Made by a program: the position numbers and the translations under genes
The notes under the pieces: model-generated
Told to the model about the DNA's origin: nothing
The model's input: only the letters and a program-made list of their open reading frames with translations
Database searches by the model: none
Shown: positions 10,398-60,660 of the stretch, in pieces
Layout of the letters: each line of letters opens with the position of its first letter
Numbering within the stretch: the first letter of the stretch is position 1
NCBI GenBank assembly: GCA_963920665.1
Contig: OY987266.1
Span: 5,523,001 to 5,587,000 of the forward strand
DNA from: Straminergon stramineum
Taxonomy: Eukaryota; Streptophyta; Bryopsida; Hypnales; Calliergonaceae
DNA length: 64,000 bases
Direction of reading: 5' to 3'

Positions 10398-10405
10398 ATC
10401 CCAAC
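10398..10405. repeat. Target site duplication, left (ATCCCAAC)
   Basis: Eight bases ATCCCAAC directly abut the left inverted end of the transposon; the same eight bases abut the right end at 18,317-18,324. One more C also matches, so the duplication could be read as nine bases. Confidence 0.8.
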
Positions 10406-10432
10406 CCCAGGTACGCAACTCCCATATTATAT

Positions 10433-13400
10433 GACCATGATTATAATCACTTATAATGCATTTTAGTACAATCTCAAGGGATATAATTTGTTTTAATGTA
10501 GAAAACTCTTGTAGCCCTTTCAACAAGGAATCCAAAAATGTAATTATATACATGAAATGGGTATTTTTGAGGATAAAAATAGCATTAAAAACCTAATTAT
10601 ATGAGTATTTTTAATACATGTATCATAGGCCGAGCTACCCAACTTTTAGGGCTTTCTAATAAAAATTTAAGATTTTTATATTATAAATAATACATTGAAA
10701 ATGAATTTTAATTTTAATTGGAGGGAACTTTTTGAATGAATTTTTTAAAATTATACATAGGGAACTTTTGAGTGTGATGGTTGAACTAGAAGATTATTCA
10801 TTTGTGTTAGAATATTGCTGAGGTAGGTGTTATTTATGACCAAATATTTCATATCGTATCCAATGTATTTCAAGAATATAATAGCTAGCAGTAATGGACC
10901 CTGGGTAGTTGAAGGTCATTCCAAGGGAGCAACAGGTGTATTCTAAACCATAGTGCCATTGTTGTTTAGGTCTTCTTCTCTCTCTTGTCCATTTTCCCAC
11001 CGTGTTTTTCTATTGAGTTTTACTGCCGCATTGTCTCTTTCATTTCTCTGTCGTCATTCTCCCATTTTTTTGGTGGACCACTGTCTTTGATTTGGAAGGG
11101 TGTTGCCAACATTTTTTGAGGCTGGATTCCATTTGGCAATTGTTGTGGAGGATCACACTTGGAGCATTGCCATAGAGTGTTGCTATGGAGGATCTTGTTT
11201 GGTGATCATACATTTACATTCTTGATCAAAACTCAAAGATCTACATCTCATACGTAAACTTCCATCTCTGTCCTCCCTTGTGGGTTTAGGTTTGTGTTTT
11301 TGAACCAGCTTGTGCAGCTTTTACATTTGCCGATTGGATCACTGTTTCTAGGGCATGCCTATTTGGCTTTGATTTTTAGCTTTATGATGGCCAGGCTCAA
11401 TCGAGCATTGCATGAGGGTATTGATTGACTTGGCCTTCTTGGGTTCCTGATTCTTATGCTCCTTTTCTCACTCCTTTTGAAGTTGCAACCTTGTACTTTT
11501 AGGTCCATTGAACATTGGTTTGTTCCATATTTGGGTTTGTCTTGTTGTTGACTTGATGTTTAGAGATGGAGTTTAAAGCTTGTTGGGTCTGGTGTTGTTT
11601 CCCATTGGTATGAACATGACCTTGATAAAACTCTCATTGGTATATACTTCCCAGTGAAGATTAGATCTACTTCAGATTAGATTTGAGGTTTATGAGTGCC
11701 ATCAACATATTGCCCCCACATTGTTTGGAATTGGTTGTCATTGAAGCTGAGCATTTCAAAAGGAGTACACAGTTCGAATTTTTTTTGAGCCGAGCCTATT
11801 GCTTGATGCTCTTGACATCTTCATGGAGTAGAGATTGCAAAGTTGGCATGGTTAATTTTTTTTTCTCAGGGTTAGTTAATCCTCGTTTACTGCACATTGA
11901 CTGCAGTATCACCTATCAATCAATGTGCAATATTGCATTCCTTTTTTTCTCTGTTCTGCTTGCAATTTCATGATTCTTGATTTGTTTTAGAACATGATTA
12001 GGATGACTATGCAACTTTGGTTTCTCTATTCTACACTTCTACTTCCACTTTTATAATTATTGATTTGATTTAGAACGTGATCAGGAGAGTGATCAGGAAC
12101 ATGATTATGAGCTTGATCATGTTTGATTAAAATATTTGTCAACCATTTGTTGAACTAGTGAGTCTAGTCTGATCTATGTTAGTTTGAGACCTTTGATCTG
12201 TAATTTGAGATCTCTAATCCTAGCACTTGAATCTCATGCTTACTTTTGTGAATCTTAACAAACATGATCCTCTGTCGATGATGTGTAGTTTCAACTTAAA
12301 CTAATTTCAGGCTTCCATTGTCATTTCATTCTTGTAGGGGGCCCTGGCAACTAGAAATGGAGCTTAGCTTGATTGGAGAATTTTAACTCTACTTGTCAAG
12401 GTGTCTAAGAGACTGAAATTCTATTGATTGCTACTGTCAACGACTTGTGGGACAAGAATCTTATTAGGTAAGCAAGCCCATGTGAAATTTTAGTACTAGC
12501 TAAGGTAGTTTGCTCATAAACTGTGCGTTTAAGGGCTGGTCGGCCTTTTCGATGGTTCTTAGATGCACGAAATTATTTTTTTCTTATTTTTCACTTGAAG
12601 AAAAATTGATGTGGAATCTAACCCAAGTGGTTTCATATTTTTCGGAGCATTTTTGAATTACTTACGAATTTCTAAAGAATTCTGCCATAGGTATCTATTT
12701 CTTCATCGTAGGCCTTACAAAACCCACACATGCATAGTCTGAAAAAAGATATGGCTTCACCAAAAACAAATACTGCAGCATGTAGAAAGTAATAGACATG
12801 ACCATATATAAGTTGACAGTGAAGGAACTTGAACAATTAGGAAATTGATCAGCTATGGACTTGAATCAATGAATCAGGTAGAAACTTGAACTTGAATCCT
12901 TACTCAATTATTGATGTCCAAAGTATGACCAACTGATTGGTTAAGTATGACTAAGTAATTCAGTTTTTTATTTAGTGTTTTTATTGATGGAAGTGTTGAT
13001 GGATGTGTTGATTTGGTAACTCATCATTGGCATTGTTTTTTGATTTTTCAGAACATTCTGCATTTTCATTACTGCATTGTTTGATCTACAAAAGACATTG
13101 ATTTTAAAGTTACTGCATCATTATCAAGTTTCAACATCAAGTTTCAAGAGGTTGCTACATTCAGGTGTTGAAGCCCACCTTAAGAACTTTTTTGTCCCAT
13201 TCTTGTCCCTTTTCAAGAACTTTTTCTGAAGTGGTTGTTTTCTTCTTTTTCTCTAGAGCCTCTTGGTTGCATGAAAAATCTCACTACAGGCCTTATGTTT
13301 TATAGTAGTTTTGAGTATGTCCTATGTAGACTTCTTGTTCAAATCTATTTGTTTTAGGATCACCACAAGTAAAATTTGATCCCATCTGAATTATTTCTTC

Positions 13401-13694
13401 TACAATATGATCCATTCAATTTGCCATTTTGAAACCACTAATCCTTGGTCCTATAGGGATTGAAGTCCAACCCATGGCTATAGAAATTGATATTGTTTAG
13501 GATACAAAAAAAGCATATCTTATTATTAGGAGGTTTTAAAAGAAGTTTTATTAATTTCTTGTGTTTATTTTCATGATACAGATGTGGTGATACTATTGGT
13601 GTGTTGCTCTTTGGTGATCCTCTTCAAATTGGGCTATATTGGAACATACCAAATCTCATTCTTGTTTGGAAATAAGGTTTCCAAAGAGTTGAAG
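10433..13694 (+). other. Non-coding 5' part of the large transposon
   Basis: No long frame with recognisable content. A pyrimidine-rich acceptor-like site (ATACAG) at 13,574-13,580 suggests that the region just before the gene's first clear ATG could be an exon joined to an upstream leader I cannot locate. Confidence 0.4.
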
Positions 13695-16600
13695 ATGGAT
13701 GGTGTTAAATTCCTAGAGTGCAAGCATCTCACAGGTTGCAATGGAGATGGTTGTTTGTTGTTTGACCCTTCAGATGAAAACCCCTTGCTTTGTGATTGTT
13801 GCTCTTGTCATAGAAGCTTTCACCTTGCAATTTTTGATAGACCTCTAAGTAGTGGTGCTTGTGTAAAGAAACACAATGGTGGGGTTGATGGTTGCCAATT
13901 GTTTCATGCTAATGTGGCCAATGCCCGTAAATGTGGTGCATGTGGGTGCCACAGATCGTTACATCAGCCTCTACCATTAACCTCACCATCATGTTCACAT
14001 CAAATTACATGGAATTCTGTTGTAAGCACTGCTCTTTCATCACATGGTAATATTCTATTGATGGATGATGATGATGAATGTTTGAAAGAACCTATAACTA
14101 AGAAGCTGAGAGTAAATGATGGTTCATCTAATGTCAATGGTAGTCCACTTCCTTTTGCCAAGGTTAAATTGGAGTTTCCTATGAGTGACACTAACTGTGA
14201 GGTCATAGAAATGGGTGTTAGTAATAGCTTGGAGGTTGATATGATTGGCATACCTAAAAAATTGAAGAAGAATTGGGAATTATTAGTGAAGAAATATCCT
14301 AAATGTGACTTTGGTAGCTTTGTTCCTTGCCTTTCCAAGGATGTAAAGAAGGGTTTGTCAACTTGGATAATTTGGTGTGATCCATGTCAAAAGGAAATGT
14401 GCATTAATCCAGGGAAGTCATTTAACTTGTCAAACTTTGAAATACATCTCCAACCCAAATTATCTCTCAAACGTGGAGTCCCTAGTGATAAATCAAAGCA
14501 TGAGATGGCTTTGTTGGAACAAAGGAGAGTGGCTGAGTCCAAGTTGAAAGCTACTACAACTATTGAACTCACTGAATTGAAGAGGAGATCTTGGATAGTG
14601 AAGCATGCTTCAGAAGGTAATTATATTATTCCCTTCAATTTTGGACAAAATATTTTTCTTTTTTCATGTATAATTCTAATGACAGTTTCTGTGGTTATAT
14701 CTCAGGGGCTGTAATGATTGATGACAATAATTGGAGGTACACAATATGTGATTACAAGGGAAGGTTTGGGCAAGGGGATACAATTAGTGTTCACATGAAA
14801 GGAGCAGTACACATACAATCAATGAAAAACAAGGATGTTGCTTGTGGGGGAGGTAACCAACTTACCATTGTTGCTTCTCTAGCAAAGGGGGTCAGATCAG
14901 GAGCACCTGAGTATCCTCCATCTTTTATCCCTAATCCTATTGATATTCCACATTATGTATTATTGAGTTACATTGAAAAAAATGTTTGCCATGGATTCTA
15001 CAACAAGTCATTAGTCATAATGAATGAGGTGGTAGATTGTAGCTTATTACTAAATGATCTTCATATTGGATCATTGTGGTACCCTGATCCACACTATTCT
15101 CAATGTATTGAGAAAAATAATGAAACTCTCCACATTAAAGGGACATTTAGGCATGTTGATTGTTCTATCATGTTTTGTAAAATGTGTCCCTTGATCCCAA
15201 AACTAGATGACTTCAGAAAAAGAGCTTGGCGTTCAAGTCATGCAGTAGTTCCTAGAGGAGAACGATGCATGCAAAGGGGTACACATTTTGATTATCTTCA
15301 ATATGAAGAATTGATCACCTCAGCTAAAGAGTGGGAGAAGAGAGCTGATGCATGTAGTGGCCAAGTTTTTATGTTGAATTTAGCTTTGACTAGAGCAAAA
15401 ACAGCTAATCAATATCTTCAACATAAATTGAAGACTACTTTGATTGAAGGCTCACTCCCTAAAATAGCAGAGCTTCTTAGGAAGGCTGCAGATTTTGGGG
15501 CCTTCCAAAAAAGGTCCACTTTGTATAATCTTTTGTTTGACACAGCCTCTAATTTGCTATCTGTTCATAAATGTGGTGGGGATGGCCATGGAAAGAGGTA
15601 CCATCCAAGCACTGTGAAATTATTTGAGGTAGTTCACAATTTTGGTGGGACTTCTACACACAATTTTATTTCTTCCAATTTGTTAGGACCAGTTATAAAC
15701 ACTAGCCAAAAGATATATAAAAGTGAGGGATTTTTGTATTTAGTTGGTCTAAATGAAGAAACATTTATTCATTTGTCATCAATACTAACAAAGTGCAAAG
15801 CCAAACTTGGAATTTCAGGCCCTATTCCTTTTGAATGCTCTGAAGATGAAACCACTTGTGTTGCATTAGCAACTCTAAATAGGCGCAATGACTTCATAGA
15901 TGGTTTTTGTGGAACCAAAGCTTCTTCTGAAACTCCTCATAAGTGTTCATTTGATCCTAAACCTTCAATTGCTAGTTTTGAGTCAATTATAGATGCTTTT
16001 TCAAGCTTGGAGGTTGGCAACATGTGTCGTGTATTAGTGGCAAACCCTTTGGTTAAAGGAATGCCTAGATTGATCTATGGAATATTAACCACATACAATA
16101 AGTTTGATGCCACCCAAGTTCAGTTGCAATGGACACGTGTTGCAGCTTTGCACAAGAAGCATCTTGAAGAGGTTGTTGGTCCTCTTAGAGGGCATGCAAG
16201 TGATGGTGATGTAAGGAGGAGAAAACTAATGTTAGAGAGCATTTACAAGGGTACATTTGGACTGAATGAAGATGGCTTCTTGATGAAGTCAGAGGTTGTT
16301 GATGGACATCCATTAATCATGGTACAAGATCGAATACATGTAGGTAAGAAACTTTGAAACCCTTTGTTGAGTCCTCGAAGGACAATATTTTGGGGTCATT
16401 TTTTGGCTCACAAAAACCATTTGCAATTGGTCACGGAATTGTTTATTAGAGATGAGTATGGTTTGTTGGATGAAGATATAAATGTAAAGGACAAGCAAAA
16501 TTATCCAGCTGTACAACGTATTTCATTTCCTCAAGTTAGAGCATGTTTAGAAAAATTACATGCAGGAGTAGTTGTAAAAGGGGTCTTCAGGAAGGAATGT

Positions 16601-18118
16601 GTGTTGGGTACAATCATTCATTTAGAAGTATTGTGGGCATTCTTAGAGATTTTCTATGGACATGGAACAATGTATGAGAGGGTAATGCTTGCTTCATTTG
16701 TCTCTCATATGCTTTATTATGGAACAGAGTACATCCTTCATCAAAAGCATGGTCATACCATTGGGGGCAATTGGATGAGTAGAGAGACTCGCATTGATTG
16801 CCTCATATCTTGTCATGCTGTTGTTAACTATGTTAGAATGATGAGAAATAATTACCCTCATTTGCCATGCCCATTAGGTAACATTGGTTCAAATTGTTGT
16901 GAGGACTTTTTTTCCCTCCTTGGACAACAAGTGAAGAATAAACATACATTTTTTGTTGGAGAAGCTATTGAAAGATATTCTCACATTGGTAGAACTAAGC
17001 AAGTTAAATATTCTGATGATGGAATATCATTTGCTCAATCCCGGCGGAGGAAGAATATATGGTGATCATCAAATGCCCAAGTGGCAGGTTCTAACTTGTG
17101 TGATTATGCCTCAGTGACTAATGAGAATCTTAAGAAGGCTTGGTGTGAAGGCATTGTTATGGCACAGAATAGGGCTGAGAGGGTTGCCATGAAGGAGGTA
17201 CTTCAAACATAAGGGAAATGGACTGACCCTTGCCCCCATTCTTTTAGTCATGAATCATTAGCTCATGATACACATGAAAATTATACAAAAAGAAGTAACA
17301 ATCATGTTGTTGATGATGGGCCTCTTAGAGAAGGTATAGTAGTTTTACAATCAACATTGTTACATGCTGAGCAAAGTGATAATTTAGATAGTAGAATTTT
17401 GAATGTAGGCTCAAAACACTCTTCTACAATTGAAGTACTAGGTAAAGGTCAAGTGTACAAGATGAGATTAATTTCTGAATTGAACATACACTCCCTTGAG
17501 AAGTTGCCTTTGGATAGGTTGAGGCGTGTAAGATATAAAAGTACAAATCTAGATGCTTATGTGTATGATGATGATCAAGTGCATATTGGATTATTTGATG
17601 ATGTTGGGCTTTTGTTTGATGAGGGTAATGGGAAGTTGCTATGGCACATTGGAAGGGTGTAGAAAATAGTCAAGGCTGTTGGAGAAAAAGGAGCCCAAGT
17701 GGATTATGTTCAAAGTGTTTCACTTTCTGATGAGAAAATCAGTATATTGCCAAAGTATTACAAGCACATTGCAGGATTGCAATATACATATGGAGGTTAT
17801 GAAGGAGCTGAATGTGACTTCATTGGTTTGGAGAGTATTGTATGCATTGTTACAATAGTCATTGATGTGGATAAAGACATTTATACATTGGTTGTAGAAG
17901 ATCGTGATGCCTTGGATAAGTATGTGGATTGTGAGATGAAGCGTAGAGGCTCATGTAGTGGAGTTAGAAGTAGAGAGAAGGAGTGCACTACATCTGTAAT
18001 TGCCACAGCTCCTTCCAAAAGAGGGAGACCTCGGAAGGTCCCTATAGTTTTAGCAAATACTAGTCTAATATCTTCTTTGAACACCCCGATAAGGCACTCT
18101 ACAAGGTTAAAAAAATAG
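13695..18118 (+). pseudogene. Transposase-like gene with two ZF-HD zinc fingers, four in-frame stops
   Basis: Exons 13,695-14,616 and 14,706-18,118; the donor (G|GTAATT) and acceptor (CTCAG|G) keep phase, giving 1,444 codons. N-terminus: two zinc fingers at residues 9-43 and 56-90; the second fits the plant ZF-HD pattern exactly (C-x3-H, DGC, C-x2-C-x-C-H-x3-H). The middle and C-terminal part has a layout like RNase-H-fold (P/THAP9-type) transposases: KRYHPSTVKLF, a SEDE acidic motif, ASDGD, IHVGKKL, DKQN, EDFFSLLGQ. The tail has an AT-hook (KRGRPRK) and a basic end. The frame stays the same throughout exon 2 but is broken at 16,355 (TGA), 17,063 (TGA), 17,210 (TAA) and 17,660 (TAG). The ZF-HD match is seen directly; the transposase fold is inferred from motif order, and KDZ-like or unclassified families remain possible. 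Confidence 0.75.
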
Positions 18119-18316
18119 GTGTTTCATTCTTCATATATCTTATGAAGTTTTTTTAATAAATATGCAACCCAACATTTTCTACAACTATTTAATTTAATTT
18201 GGCCTTCACCCAACTTTTTGGTTGTTTTAATTCCATATAATTTTTACAAAAGCAGTCCTCTAAGCCATTTTAATGCCGATGACCCCTGTATATAATATGG
18301 GAGTTGCGTACCCGAG

Positions 18317-18324
18317 ATCCCAAC
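18317..18324. repeat. Target site duplication, right (ATCCCAAC)
   Basis: Right-hand copy of the eight-base direct repeat bounding the transposon that ends at 18,316. Confidence 0.8.
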
Positions 18325-18685: not shown

Positions 18686-19182
18686 GTGACCTCTTCAATA
18701 TGTCAAAGATTTTCAAGAGCGTTGTATATGACCAACAACCACCTTCAAATCCAGATACATATCCAATGGTTAGGAACAATTGAACCATACGGAGAATTGC
18801 AAGTGTACCATCTACAGAACATTGAAACAAGTAGGAGAGTGTTGATAACATTAAAGGACAAATCCTTGGAGTAACAGTGCTTCCTTTTCCAAGCCTAGGT
18901 GCAATTGTGTCATTTGAGACACAGGGAGATCGCAACAGAAATGTGTATCGAGTTACAGTGGGTATGTTTCCCGTGTGTACATGCCCAGACTTCGTGAACA
19001 TGTGTGTTTCGACTATTGGAGGTCATCATCAGTACGTGAATTGCAAGCACCTATACTACTTGTACCGCTACTTTTGCAAAATGGACATCCATGATGACAA
19101 ATTCATTCATGCACTAAGTTATAGCTTCAATGAGTTGAAGTTACTTCTAATTCGAGTAGGAATTATCACAATTTTAGAGTAG
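18686..19182 (+). pseudogene. SWIM zinc-finger transposon remnant
   Basis: Two adjacent frames (18,686-18,874 and 18,877-19,182) in different phases. The second contains a SWIM-type finger: FPVCTCPDF, then about 18 residues later NCKHLYYLYRYF, i.e. C-x-C...C-x-H. SWIM domains are common in Mutator/FAR1-type and other plant transposases, and this looks like the C-terminal part of one. The phase change between the two frames, the absence of upstream domains and the lack of splice signals indicate a decayed fragment. It lies outside the delimited 7.9-kb element, so it belongs to a different insertion. Confidence 0.6.
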
Positions 19183-25705: not shown

Positions 25706-28700
25706 TTAGTGAAGGGCAATCCAACGCTCCACAGATCCATTACAGACGAAGCATTGGGCATAGTCATGATTTCCTTGACGCAGCTTGCTTTCGCACAAGG
25801 AGCACAAGTTTTGGTGACCGCATGGAACCGCAACCCAGAAAGCTTGTCTCTCACATATTCCAGCCGCCTTTGAGTTGAAGCCTTGAGCTGGGCTTGATGA
25901 AGCAGAGAAGTATCCACTGGGCGTGCCGAAATTCGATTCGTTACTGTGAGGAGGATTCTGGCCAAACAGATGGTAGAACAACTGAGAACGTTTTGGCTTT
26001 GTAGCAAGGTCATGGCAGGCACCCCGGATAATATTAAATTTGAATTGCGTCACTCGAAAAAGAAAAACAACTGCTCAGTGCGGGACAATAATACTCCCCG
26101 TTTGCAAGCCATTCGTGAGCATCCCAAACTCCGAGTGGTGTGAAACGTTACCCACTAACCCGCTTCTACAGATTCAGGAAATCGTGTTCGGGGCTGGTGC
26201 TATACCTCGTAAAGCTGACATGCGGAGTTGTAAGTCTCAGTTCCGCTGCCCTGAATGCCATAGCCACCCACCTTCATCCTCTCTGGGTCTTGTCCCCACA
26301 TGCTTGAAGGGGGGAAATTTTCTGAAAGAAATCCAGCGAAAGCATGACTGGAAGGGGGAGTAGGAGGATTGTTTTCGCGCGTTGGTGTCTTTGGTTCCTT
26401 CTCGATAAACGGGGAATACATAGATCTCTCCCTTTCATTGTCCACATTCTTAGTCGACTTTTGTAAAAACTGCCCTGGTGGTGCTTCTGCATCGTCACAG
26501 GAGCAGGCCAGGAGCCTATTGCTGCGTGATTGGCAGGCGGCGCATGTTCTTTTCCCGCAATCTTCAGCCGTGATATCAGCTATAGTAACAGAGACACATC
26601 CTCTTTGGCTAGTCCAGAATTTATGTCAGAAGAACTCGTCTCACCAATAAACAAAGCTTCCGTGTCTTCTGTTCGCACCAATGTATCCTGACTGGCTGAT
26701 CGGCATCTCCTGGAGGAGCTAGAATGACAGGTCATTGGGGTTCCGCTGTTCAATCCATTCCGGCTATGTCCTTCAGAATAGGTCAACGAAGTTTTCGGTG
26801 GCCCATCACACGTTGCTTTCAGGTCTGCGTTGTCGCCTGCGACTGCAGTACTGGGTCCGTGTCCCCTCAACGACAAGCCCTGATAAGAGAAAACTGGCTG
26901 ATGGTCAGTCGAAAAGGTCATTCCTCCTGATGGTGCTGGAGCTCCTGCATGCTTTCCTTGATGACCAAGATTAGAGCCGCTTGTACAGAAAGCAGCATTA
27001 CAGGGCGGTGCTGCATCAGACCTGCGGAGTCTAGCAGCTGAACCGTGGCAGGCGACCTCTGCGTATGAGCGTCTACCGTCCACTAAGGAACGGGGTGTAA
27101 TGTTCGAAAGATTTCGCCGACCAGCTGCTGAGAAGATGTTTCGATTCATAGGTGGAAGTAGAACCATATGAGTGGCTCCCCTGCCCACAGGAACAATCTT
27201 CATCCTGCAGAGCTCTGGGAATGACCGAACAAAGTCGCTGAGCTTCTCGAACCCTGGTGAAGCATGATCGAGCTCCAAACCGCATATTCCTCTGTAATCT
27301 CCTTTGAGAGAAGATAGTGGAGACCACTCTCCATCGTTCCATTGCATAGAGACTCTTGACAGGAATTCCGGATGCCACTCCTTGAAGGTGTTCAACCACG
27401 TCGGCTTCCTTCCGAGCACAGTATTGGATGGCGCCCCTCGCATGACGGATTGTGAAACAGAGTGATCACGAGTGACACTGGATACATTTGCAGAAGGACA
27501 TCCAAACCAAGGTGAAGTACTTTCCGGCGGCACCTCTCGAATTACAGATTGTAAATTTGAATCACCAGAGACGTTGCATACCCCTGCTGAAGGAAACCCA
27601 GTCAAACCGGAAGTCAGAGCTGGTCTGTCGGGGTTCGCCAGCGGGCTCGTCTGATTGCACTGCTGGAGTTCATTCTTTGGCAGACAAAGTGATCCTGGTG
27701 TTGCTACTTCGAGCACCTCTGCTTCGTTCAAATCCAATATTTTGTTCCCAGTCATTGCTATGTCGGAATGAGTATCAGAGTCGACTCTTGACACTTCTAG
27801 TGCCGGCAATTCGAAACGAGGAACTGCACCCTTAATTTCCACCTGCAAGGGAAAGAGGTGCAAAGAAGAGTTAAGAGGGAAAAAAAACCCTCAGTACAAA
27901 CTACTTAGGAAATTGCAGCTTCTTCAGTGGTGCATCTTTCCAAGCAATACAACTCTACAAGCATTAACTCTTCTCCGGAGCCATCGTCTGTAATAACTCC
28001 GTCCCCCATACCTTCTTTCCATAAATGTTAATATAATGAGCCTCCACTGCAGCCGAGACCGACGCTGCGTGCTTGAAGTTGACAAACCCAAATCCACGAG
28101 ATTGCATTTGATCACCTGCCTGGCTCCCAATGACCACAGCGTCCAAAACTGGTCCGTAGTTTACCTCGAAGAACTCCCGCAAGTCATCTACACATCCAAG
28201 CACGGGCACAGTCAGAAAGAAAAGCTCTCTGTGACTATTAACGAGTTTGAACAAAATCAAAAATCTACTGAAGTCACTCTTACTGTAAACTCTTGAAATT
28301 TCTTTCAAAGATTTAAAAGAATGTAACGCATAGGAAAAGTACCTCACTGGTCTGTGATCGACTCTTCCTGCCTAAAAGCTAATGAACCAAGCCGACCTCC
28401 GCTCGATCGGATCTAGCGGAAGAAAAAAAATTCAAGAAAAGTGAATTGAGCCCTGGACGCAACAGGTCTAACTCTTTGCACTGGGCAACTAGTACGGCTG
28501 GATGATAGACCAATGAACTGTACGTTACTACTTAGCGCATCAAATCAAGCAGGTGGCAATAGTTACGTTACTCATGAGGACATGGAGCTCACCCTAAAAC
28601 ATGGTAGATCGGCATAATCTACGAATAGAATTCATCAGTAACGTATTCATTTGGCCTGTTTGGCCAGTACTGTATCCCTATTCATGACAGAGTCTCTGAA

Positions 28701-43604: not shown

Positions 43605-46600
43605 TCAACTTGAAAATTTTGGTGTTTTTGGTGTTCTTGGTGATTTCGGCCTCAGTAGAGTAGGGTGAGCAGACATGATGATGGCCAAATACTCTGGATT
43701 TCGTTTCAGAAAGCCACTGAACTCCTCCCAGCTGATTTTCCCATCACGATTTAGATCTAGTGTGTCAAAAAGTTTCAATACCTGCAAATCATCCAGTGAA
43801 ACAATGTTATTTTTGGACAAGTAGCGATTCACTAAAATTTAGAAGAGAAGCAAAGAATTGTAGGGCGTCATAGTAGCTCCCCTAACATGTCAGTGAGTTT
43901 TGAAACCCTAAACTTCATTGACATCCTGGTCCTGAATCCATTTCCGGCAAACCTGTTATCCAAATGTTAGGGTAACTACCCTGACTATCCCTAAATTGGC
44001 AAAGAGGAGTAGCAGCATGATGGATGGGGCTATTTGAGCATATGTACCGTTAATGGGGGCAGCTCAGGGAAGATGGCAAGCAAACTCCTCTCCACCTCCT
44101 CACGGGAAAGGGTGCCATCACCATTCACATCACAAGCTTTGAATGCCGCCTCCATTGTGCTTGCAAATGACGTGTGGGTAGACACAAAGGCTAGCCCTGC
44201 CAAAAACTGCTCATACACCGTGATTTACTTGAGAACCCTGGTTTGTAGCTGAACTGATCTTTCGAAAATACATGTACATTTAAAGAGGTATGCTCACTAG
44301 TGGAAAGTATGTCATGTTCCAACCAGAGAGTCCATCCAACCTTGCTGGAATTGGTCACTAATGATCTGTTCCAGTTGAGTTCGATGGACTCCCAGGTTGC
44401 AATCGCACATGGCTTCCCAGAATGCTGAGATCTGACTGATATAACTCAGCAACATAAAAGACACATTTGAAACAAAAGTAGATTAGGACGGCAGAAGGGG
44501 TTTCATTTGCATACCTCTCGAAAGTTGATATCGCCGTGCCCATCCTTGTCAAGAAGATGGAACACCTGTTTAGTGCTTTCTGAATTTGGAAGGTCAAGTG
44601 CCGTAAGGAATTCATCATATGTAACTAAACCACTGCAATTACAACAAAAGTAGTCATAGGTCAATGTAGGGACGCACACGAAACTAAAAACCCTTTTGCA
44701 ATTAGCTGCTAGTCAACATCCATAATTGTACGTCACCAAGTGGAACGCGAGATGCAGAGCGAGGAAACAGTGACCAATTTCTTGAGTACATGCAACATAA
44801 GTGAAAATCCTGTCCTATTCCAGTCTGAAAGTCCATCTGTTAGAAATGGTCACTACTGCAAGAATATTGAAAACCTATTGCAAATCCCAATTAAAGTACC
44901 TATGTTTGACATCCATTGCACTGAACTTGGTCAAATAGTTTTGGGCTGTCGCATAGTCCAGCCGAAATAGCTTCTCCATGCGCGCAAACTCGACCAACGA
45001 ACTTCCAGAAGGCTGCTTAAGCTTCTGTGCAGCTAGTGATAATTTGATATCCAGAAAGGTATGCTCTGTGCAGACGACACCTAATGCTTTGGCCATCTCG
45101 CTGCGCACCCTATTTGCAAAATCATGAGGATTTTTCATCTCCTTCACTGTTGGTACCATCACCGGTAAATACTCCACCTGCAAAGATTACCACCGGCAAA
45201 CAGTGCACACTATCATTACTCTACTGGAAATTAAACAGTCAAATAGTCCTGGGCTGTGGCGTAGATATCACGTCATGTTCCAACCAGGGAGTGCATCCAA
45301 CTTCACTAGAATTGGTCCCTAATGACCAGTTCCAGTCAAGTTGTGTCATTACACGGATTACACAATTCATGATAATTTTAAGACATGTTTCAGCATCTAC
45401 AATTCTCTGTCCATGCCCAAGTGGGAGTTGCAGATATAGAAAGAGAATATGTTGCTGTTTAGTTGAGGGGGCGAGGTAATTAATACCTCCATGAAATTGA
45501 CAAACTGGGTCATGAGCTGGAACAGAATGATCAGTGGACCTCCTTGGTCACACCAACATGGATTCATATACTTGTGAGGGTATTTGATGACCATGGGCTG
45601 CACAGGCAGACCCGGCGAGAAGGCTCCCGTTTTGAAAGAGATTATTGCTTTCCCATTGGTGGTGGTGGCCTCTGGAAACAACATGACGTGTGGCCATTTG
45701 TTGTCCATAGCCCTTCGCCGAATGTTCCCGGCTGCATGATGCCTAGACTCAGCTGATACTCTGTCCACCGGTATTATCTGCGCAATTCAAAAGTCAGCAA
45801 TCCACTTCCTAACAAAAATCAGTTCAAATGTCAATACTCCACATCCCTAGTAACTTCAGTTCAAAGTCAGCACTCTTGTTCACCAACTTTCAACAAAACT
45901 GCATATGGGATATGAAAATTGCACATTCAAAAACTCCTTTTTTCAGAGTAGGCTATGATTCTCAAGGATCGGCAACCTTACCATGCACTTTTTTAAGTTC
46001 ATACTAAGAATTCTAGGAGATTGGCAATCACCAAGGCCATCACCATGCAATATTTTTTACCGAAGTGAAAAAATAGTGTGCACGTGGCATGTGCAGTTTC
46101 AACAAAAATAATGTCCAAGGTAATAGACCCTATGTATCAATTACAGTGTACATTCAAATGTTCAAATGCACTCTATGATACATAGTGTTGCAAATAGTCA
46201 CACGGCACAAATAGGGTCTCTTCCCTAATTAATATACAAATCCAGTTCAAGACACAACAAACATAGACGGGTGCAGGTGACCTACTTGCAGAGCATGTAA
46301 AAACATGCCAACAACGAGCATCTCCACATTCTCCTTGGCTGTCACAAGAACAGGCAAGTGCCGGTAAAACACAAAGATTGGGTCCACGAACCCAATATGA
46401 TTCGACACAATAATAGGCGCCACTGAACGATGAGCAGGCCTCCCCTTGATAGAAATGTAATAATACCCCATAGTGAACATCACGACTCTAGCTCCCAACC
46501 TCGCAGGCCACAAAAGAAACCTTCGCCACGGATGGAAAGGCTTGAACAAAGGGTCAGAGACGCCAATCAATGCTAGTCTGATGAACAAGTAGCCCAAGGT

Positions 46601-46831
46601 CATGAGTGTCAACATGGCCCCCACTCGCACGAGGAACAAAGGAAAGAGGAGAATGGACTTGAGTCTTTGGATGGGGCTCCAGTTGCTGGACTCGTGGAAA
46701 GGGTTCACCGGGGGATCTCCTATTGCTGGTCGCTCGCCCAGAGGAAACTCTGGAACAATCTTTGGGTCATACTCGTCATCATCTGAAGAATCAAAATCTT
46801 CTGTTGGAATCGCCATGGTTCTAGAGCTCAT
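43605..46831 (-). CDS. LPEAT2: Lysophospholipid acyltransferase, LPEAT2-type, with EF-hands
   Basis: Transfers an acyl group to lysophosphatidylethanolamine or related lysophospholipids at the ER in plant membrane repair. Six exons in phase: 46,831-46,286, 45,777-45,487, 45,177-44,900, 44,632-44,515, 44,206-44,048, 43,781-43,605; 522 residues (Arabidopsis LPEAT2 is about 540). An acidic N-terminus precedes a hydrophobic stretch at about 57-92. PlsC motif I is NHIGFVD (144-150); motif III is FPEAT (216-220), with Ala where EGT is usual. Three canonical EF-hand loops lie at 400-411 (DKDGHGDINFRE), 437-448 (DVNGDGTLSREE) and 473-484 (DLNRDGKISWEE), implying calcium sensing. The second Met (codon 6, AACCATGGCG) has the better context and may be the true start. 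The exon 5/6 junction aligns without gap to the family. Confidence 0.92.
44310..44380. repeat. Intron repeat, paired with 45,271-45,342
   Basis: Introns 2 and 4 of the acyltransferase gene share about 70 bp in direct orientation (TCATGTTCCAACCAG, then CATCCAAC and AATTGGTC words). The intron 2 copy is preceded at 45,238-45,264 by a near match to exon 3 sequence at 44,931-44,958 (TCAAATAGT..TGGGCTGT). Confidence 0.7.
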
Positions 46832-59395: not shown

Positions 59396-60374
59396 CCGCA
59401 TCATTTACGTTTTCGTTTGAGGGGTTAAGGGTTAAGACTCCTTTTTGTTCTCAGGCAATAACTTATGTCAAAGGGGCGTCAAAGTTCCTTCCTTGGTTTT
59501 CTCCCTTTGACACGACGCACGTGAGAACCAAATTCCAATTGTCAGCTTACGGAGTAGCCTTGACGCCCACTATTATCTCAGCGCATGCTAATATGTACAA
59601 TACGACCGACGATACAGATATTGTAGACGATACGAATACGTAGATGCATCGGAAGACCATGTCCACAGCGCACAAGCCCAAGCAAGCAGGCGACGCAAGC
59701 GCCGCAGCAGCAGGGGAGCACGCACCAGATTGTTGTTTGCCATCGAAGATCTGCGTTTGACTCGTCACGGGATCCGCGCAGCAGCGATCTCGCGCGCTTT
59801 CACGGCGCCACGCGACATTCAACAACGCCGTATTCGCGCTTCATCGCTATGGAAATGGTGCACTGTGGACCAAAGATTGCTCGAGGTTTGGTGGAGGTTC
59901 CATTTTTGAAGCTGCTCGCCTAGGGTTTGGAGGTTCCCAACGTCGTCGAGAAATTCCTCAAGAGTATTTAAATTTTTTTTCTTATGTAGAGTTTGTGAGA
60001 TTGCTACGCAGGGGATGTGAGAAACGATGGAGATCGCTGGGGGAAGATTTTGCTTTCTTTTTCGGTAGGTGTGGGAGAGATGCGCTCCAATCTCGTAGAA
60101 AGGGATGCTGCAAGGGTTGAGGATTCGGTTTCGGCCAGATTTTTAAGTTTCTTCGGGGAGGGGAGGAGAGGGGAGGGGAGAGATATTGACACTAACCGAT
60201 GAGACGAGTGGACGGAGATGCGCGACTTCAAAGTTTCTTGGCTAGGGTTTGTGGGATTGGAACCAAGGGTGTAGTAGAGAGGAGGGAATGCGAGATGTGG
60301 TTGAGGGAAGATTGGTTGAGCAGTTTGTTAGGGTAGAGGTGTGAGTAAGGGTTTGAGGAGTGTTTAGGAAATCC
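59396..60374 (+). promoter_or_regulatory. Promoter and 5' UTR region of the MYC gene
   Basis: Composition turns GC- and CpG-rich at about 59,500-59,870, unlike the AT-rich flank. A palindromic G-box CACGTG lies at 59,518-59,523, 851 bp before the start codon; G-boxes are the binding site of MYC-type bHLH proteins. Several ATGs precede the main start (for example 60,017 and 60,027), so upstream ORFs are likely if transcription starts this far out. The start site itself cannot be placed. Confidence 0.45.
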
Positions 60375-60660
60375 ATGATGATGGAGACGCCATTGCCGAG
60401 CTTCTGGGACATGGGAGACTCGGCCATGATCGAGGCGTTCATGGGACCGGCGACCTACGGGATCCCGTCGAACTTCCACAACGAGACGAATGGGGGATCG
60501 GCGCAGGAGGAGCATCTGGGGAACGACAAGGGGCTGGAGTTGAGTGAGACGCTGTTGCTGCGCAGGCTGCACTCGCTGGTGGAAGAGTCGCCGGAGAATT
60601 GGACGTACGGCATTTTCTGGCAACTCTCTACGTCTCCTACAGGCGAGCTGTAAGCCCCTC

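Follow-up and report, generated by a model that had tools for sequence, protein, structure and literature searches.

In excerpts from PMC13087070 the ZF-HD proteins are described as plant-specific, their finger is given the motif CX3HX11CX12-26CX2CXCHX3H, and their domains are said to mediate protein-protein contact; an excerpt from PMC3880041 names zf-HD as one of the families that red and green algae lack. The P superfamily of transposases, which includes the Drosophila P element (transposase DmTNP) and THAP9, has as its signature a DDE triad with a D(2)H motif, according to part of PMC8230255. The locus considered here touches both. A 64,000-nucleotide stretch of the moss Straminergon stramineum (contig OY987266.1; this whole stretch is called the window) holds, at 10406..18316 on the forward strand, a broken copy of a P-superfamily-like DNA transposon, and the transposase gene of this element opens with two ZF-HD-like zinc fingers. 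The reading preferred here, with a probability of roughly 0.7, is that a plant cut-and-paste transposase of the P superfamily begins, at its N-terminus, with two compact ZF-HD-type fingers in tandem, and that this pair shares an old ancestor with ZF-HD. Computed results within this reading are the match to the profile, the structure of the gene, the ends with their 8-bp duplications, the DDE and D(2)H residues and the presence of fingers in diverged subfamilies.

The finger pair and the ZF-HD domain

An earlier note, made from the sequence alone, had placed two ZF-HD-type fingers at 13695..13964, and both they and the profile check that it proposed hold up: residues 1-98 (window 13695-13988) match the Pfam model ZF-HD_dimer (PF04770) in two stretches, at 37.9 bits (E 2.2e-9) against a gathering cut-off of 27 bits. 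The whole exon-1 frame (308 aa) scores 32.6 bits. Pfam scans of residues 1-98 and of that frame at E<=10 listed no family besides PF04770; for the pair as for the single fingers, KDZ or another cysteine/histidine (C/H) cluster family, a possibility that the note had raised, was not among the families listed at E<=10.

Finger 1 (13719..13823, forward strand) reads C-x10-C-x12-C-x2-C-x-C-H-x3-H, and finger 2 (13860..13964, forward strand) reads C-x3-H-x6-C-x12-C-x2-C-x-C-H-x3-H. Compared with the motif as excerpted in PMC13087070, both have the half C-x12-26-C-x2-C-x-C-H-x3-H, and neither has the half C-x3-H-x11-C; in finger 2 the H-to-C spacing is 6, versus 11 in the published motif, so that the ‘exact’ fit once claimed for this finger has to be given up. 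The H that finger 1 has at position 11 varies, with R or C in its place in other copies. The window fingers are compact forms of the ZF-HD finger.

The plant has ZF-HD genes of its own with which the fingers can be compared. A six-frame PF04770 search of its genome (326,016,511 bases, 59 contigs; E<=0.001) gave seven matches, which pair into five genes; in three of these the finger and a homeodomain, the latter recognized by eye, share one frame. Such genes mark the genome as that of a plant, and their small number may hint at a bryophyte. The finger domain of the other two (L004/L007 and L005/L006) is apparently split by an intron, unlike that of the three single-frame genes. Both transposon fingers align in register with the host domain, minus one stretch of 5 residues and another of 4 (3 in one host finger), and the similarity takes in residues of GC-x2-F-x-P and HR-x-[FL]H that do not bind zinc. 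Profile comparison with the host domain gave 1.1e-6 for finger 1 and 1.6e-6 for finger 2, and 5.9e-11 for the two fingers with each other (pairwise values, with no database correction).

Relatives of the element extend the match. Six of 28 homologues from a profile search bear a precomputed PF04770 label and score 27.4-48.5 bits on rescanning, with P0016 the best at 48.5; L037, which belongs to a subfamily 40-57% identical in transposase, has two PF04770 stretches at 22.4 bits. Composition was controlled by shuffling 1000 times all residues other than C and H, which were held fixed, and scoring against a hidden Markov model of three host ZF-HD domains. For seven of the eight transposon fingers tested, 0-8 of the 1000 shuffles reached the real score.

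Several observations weigh against kinship. Taken singly, both fingers fall below the Pfam cut-off, the first at 21.9 bits (E 2.2e-4) and the second at 23.4 bits (E 7.4e-5), and the ZF-HD assignment therefore leans on the pair and its relatives. For the same reason the six-frame genome search, at E<=0.001, listed the host ZF-HD genes alone and missed the window locus. Among the most diverged fingers, finger 1 of L032 has no ZF-HD match at E<=10 and P0017 reaches just 14.4 bits; finger 1 of L037 is equalled by 41 of 1000 shuffles. The predicted structure of the finger pair failed, at a predicted local distance difference test score (pLDDT) of 42.3. Finally, the pooled ratio of non-synonymous to synonymous change (dN/dS) in the fingers of 11 close copies is 0.96, which gives no support for constraint; other coding pieces of the same copies have 0.52, 0.65 and 0.48. 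When the window fingers are set against those of the older copy L034, differences fall at 12.5 of 64 synonymous sites and at 17.5 of 227 non-synonymous ones, a comparison that looks more constrained and that is a single pair of copies, both broken. A search of the PDB with the finger sequences returned one match, to GATA-1 at E 4.3, which is taken as chance.

A rival account would make the likeness convergent: an unrelated transposon C/H cluster would share with ZF-HD, by chance, the CX2CXCHX3H knuckle and GC-x2-F. The match is short, with about 30 alignable residues (too few for the tree with ZF-HD and MIF proteins that the earlier note proposed; the tree discussed below is one of the transposase core instead), and the low single-finger scores, the missing CX3HX11C half, the barely matching L032 and P0017 fingers and the shuffles that equal L037 finger 1 all lend this account some weight. 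Chance would nevertheless have to supply two stretches per protein, a homologue as strong as P0016, fingers that in seven of eight cases outscore at least 992 of 1000 shuffles, and agreement at residues with no part in zinc binding. Convergence is accordingly judged unlikely, and the transposon fingers are very probably homologous to ZF-HD fingers.

The element, its gene and its copies

The element that the earlier note took to be bounded by terminal inverted repeats (TIRs) is so bounded. A left TIR at 10406..10432 (forward strand) and a right TIR at 18290..18316 (reverse strand), each of 27 nt, match at 25 of 27 positions, the inner 23 perfectly; outside them lies the same 8-bp target-site duplication (TSD), ATCCCAAC, on the left at 10398..10405 and on the right at 18317..18324 (8/8). 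Together these delimit 7,911 bp. Element ends were examined in 16 sequences (the window and L023-L037) and both ends were seen in seven, with duplications of 8/8 in six and 7/8 in one. Six further full-length copies are 95.7-97.9% identical to the window element; all seven measure 7,906-7,920 bp and are 95.5-99.96% identical to one another. Two of them, L024 and L025, lie inverted about 12 kb apart on contig C1; their alignment of 7,906 sites shows 3 differences, but their target duplications are not the same; the near-identity of sequences at different targets therefore points to recent movement.

The transposase gene has one intron and 1,444 codons plus a stop, with the fingers at the N-terminus. 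Exon 1 (13695..14616, forward strand; 307 codons and 1 base) encodes the finger pair, an acidic linker and a C-x2-C...H cluster; the intron (14617..14705, forward strand) is of 89 bp, GT-AG, in phase 1; exon 2 (14706..18118, forward strand) encodes the transposase and ends at a natural stop, 18116-18118. The frame thus passes from the fingers across the intron into the transposase, which bears out the fusion to a transposase-like protein proposed before. The length of more than 1,400 codons proposed with it is true of the gene and not of the window copy, because exon 2 is interrupted there by four premature stops, at 16355, 17063, 17210 and 17660; in L023, a copy elsewhere in the genome, both exons are open up to the natural stop.

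The exon junction has independent support. Exon 1 is 80% identical in P0011 and 76% in P0012; the latter, a protein from a contig of 1,575 bases, matches along all of exon 1 and carries on, with no intron between, into the opening residues of exon 2, and its residues at the junction match those of the window. Because P0012 crosses the splice junction in this way the join is supported, and P0012 probably derives from a transcript. The distant relatives P0006 and P0007 have AGAV at the site of the window’s junction, which suggests that the intron position is old.

Three smaller features were recognized by eye. The C-x2-C...H cluster (14376..14447, forward strand) has both C invariant in alignment A5 and would be C2H2/BED-like in fold. 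A second C2H2-like cluster lies at 14738..14812 (forward strand); its first C is Y in the window copy and C in P0005, P0006, P0007 and L023. KRGRPRK (18017..18037, forward strand) presumably resembles an AT-hook.

A transposase query of the plant’s own genome gave at least 85 matches, and 79 of 132 candidates were scored. Twenty regions (L023-L042) were taken for a finger search with tblastn at E<=1e-3. Every one of the 15 regions in which the transposase shares 40-97% identity with that of the window has fingers, the diverged L032, L036 and L037 included; this search found none in the five at 28-33% identity (L038-L042). The latter constitute a distant transposase family of the same genome with a differing N-terminus, by eye perhaps of ubiquitin-like fold. 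A tree built from the transposase core has 29 rows and is rooted at the midpoint only; L034, whose best piece is too short, and P0005, of 35 residues, were left out. In it all 15 finger rows fall in one group (support 97/96), which also takes in two rows of unknown exon 1, P0001 and P0004; L038-L042 form a group of their own, at 100/100. No distant relative was confirmed through a DNA pattern, among 25 matches in viral contigs and 301 in genome contigs. The earlier note had suggested looking for further proteins in which this finger is followed by the downstream region seen here, and such proteins do exist.

Starting from the finger pair, a genome search gave 25 matches, collapsed to 22 loci, and 20 of these are followed on the same strand, less than 6 kb away, by a transposase match. 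Two of these 20, C1:21.66 Mb and C4:12.33 Mb, adjoin a transposase match of just 31-32% identity, and for two of the 22, C3:40145755 and C4:12334401, the fingers match less well than E 0.001. The remaining two loci, C7:3071854-3072132 and C7:9686778-9687029, have no nearby transposase among the matches listed and may be fragments or solo genes. They are what could be said for a different gene model, in which a MIF-like finger gene and a separate neighbouring transposase gene were wrongly joined. That model is most improbable: order and spacing are alike at the other 20 loci, a GT-AG intron is present and P0012 crosses its position intron-free, and fingers and transposase both lie inside the TIRs. 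The fingers belong to the element.

The transposase and its surroundings

In P0002 the signature of the P superfamily, as excerpted in PMC8230255, is present as D371, D490, D532-x2-H535 and E724. The corresponding window features, all on the forward strand, are SEDE at 15839..15850 (first catalytic D candidate, D371, compared with D230 of DmTNP), HASDGD at 16193..16210 (second candidate, D490, compared with D303), QD-x2-H at 16325..16339 (the D(2)H motif, D532) and GSNCCEDFF at 16886..16912 (catalytic E candidate, E724). From D(2)H to E is 192 residues both in P0002 and in DmTNP, by the same excerpt; P0006 has N in place of D532. In a structural comparison of the transposase model, itself poor, the two top places go to P-element chains, well ahead of all others. 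The 8-bp TSD is likewise a trait of the P element. On these grounds the transposase looks P superfamily-like.

The alternative here is that the element is KDZ or hAT, since an 8-bp duplication is common to several superfamilies. Two points speak for it and against P: no P- or THAP9-type Pfam match is listed for the window exon 2 pieces, exon 2 of L023 or P0001-P0010, and the structural model is poor. Scans of the window copy covered exon 1 and the exon 2 stretches 14711-16354 and 16358-17062. No hAT match is listed either, in these window stretches, L023 exon 2 or P0001-P0010, and no KDZ or CxC profile at E<=10 in the exon stretches scanned, where such a domain may still lie unlisted; what KDZ or hAT leaves unexplained is the D(2)H motif with its DmTNP-like spacing and the clear lead of P-element chains in structure. 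Such an origin is thus quite improbable. Matches of a transposase profile in the PDB, to a chemotaxis receptor and a LIM protein (E 0.0036 and 2.1), are taken as chance.

Elsewhere in the window, a short frame adjoining the element’s right end (18877-19182, forward strand) has C-x-C...C-x-H, SWIM-like by eye, and no Pfam match at E<=0.1. Frames at 25706-28347 (reverse strand) match RING, LOTUS/OST-HTH and RRM in series and are probably a single host gene. At 45397-46831 (reverse strand) there is an acyltransferase match (45400-45768) with an acyltransferase-like N-terminal frame upstream that has no Pfam match. The start of a bHLH-MYC_N domain at 60360-60650 (forward strand; 25 bits, cut-off 30.2) is probably exon 1 of a MYC-type factor.

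Descent, function and comparison with known systems

Of the two proposals made by the earlier note, capture of a host finger or a transposon relative or source of ZF-HD, the first fares poorly in its recent form. The host does carry ZF-HD genes, and transposons are known to take up host exons. But the fingers recur in subfamilies whose transposases are 40-57% identical and so predate the split of these subfamilies; the same two short host insertions are missing from every aligned transposon finger (three host fingers were compared); transposon fingers 1 and 2 resemble each other more closely than they do the host’s; and a genome search with the transposon finger pair, at E<=10, missed all five ZF-HD loci of the host. 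Because of the first three of these, recent capture from the host’s own lineage is very unlikely. Kinship of ZF-HD with the transposon may otherwise have either of two directions, with neither favoured by the data: capture, long ago, of a finger from an early ZF-HD gene, or derivation of ZF-HD fingers from a transposon. A bolder form of the second, which we regard as doubtful, derives the plant ZF-HD finger from a P-superfamily transposon, whose N-terminal finger would have been joined to a homeodomain in an early streptophyte; if true, the compact form would be nearer the ancestral one, and the two insertions a plant innovation. A limited literature search, which tests novelty weakly, found no account of the origin of the ZF-HD finger.

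The preferred reading, a compact finger pair that goes back to an old ancestor shared with the ZF-HD domain found in plant transcription factors, suggests a way in which the transposase may work. The two fingers would have arisen by duplication within the transposon lineage. The element ends would be recognized by the C/H clusters at 14376-14447 and 14738-14812 together with the AT-hook-like KRGRPRK; the finger pair would link transposase subunits into a multimeric complex, as ZF-HD domains link transcription factors; an RNase H-like DDE core would cut the element out; and staggered joining would yield the 8-bp duplication. Multimerization is the first choice of role for the pair, at about even odds, because of the protein-protein contacts attributed to ZF-HD domains in the excerpts from PMC13087070. 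DNA binding at the element ends comes second, as a less probable role. It is also possible that the fingers contact the host’s own ZF-HD proteins and so steer or regulate transposition.

A transposon family with a related finger offers a concrete relative with which the origin of ZF-HD can be tested in either direction, and adds a plant P-superfamily transposase in which a finger module replaces THAP. It also counsels caution in annotation: PF04770 matches with no homeodomain may be transposons rather than MIF genes. For the window copy, no homeobox family is listed at E<=10 in exon 1, 14711-16354 or 16358-17062.

Set beside the ZF-HD dimerization domain of plant ZHD and MIF proteins, the transposon fingers share CX12CX2CXCHX3H preceded by GC-x2-F, and as a pair they exceed the curated cut-off of PF04770; they differ in the H-to-C spacing (the value of 11 being that excerpted in PMC13087070), in a shorter loop from F to the first knuckle C than in host fingers, and in standing two in tandem, fused to a transposase. 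With the P superfamily of the Drosophila P element and THAP9 the element has in common the DDE triad and D(2)H, the distance between D(2)H and E as excerpted, a helical insertion (GTP-binding in the P superfamily, within an RNase H-like core) that the poor model tentatively places between the second D and E, and signs of cut-and-paste movement with an 8-bp TSD. Unlike those relatives, it has a plant for a host, no THAP domain or P-family Pfam match listed in the exon stretches scanned, and an N-terminus of ZF-HD-like fingers and other C/H clusters. The PAIRED domain of PAX homeodomain proteins, believed to go back to a transposase of Tc1-like kind (PMC4901127, in part), provides a precedent for a homeodomain-linked domain with a proposed transposase origin; it is animal, its source is Tc1-like and the domain is unrelated, and for ZF-HD that direction of descent would be a proposal by analogy.
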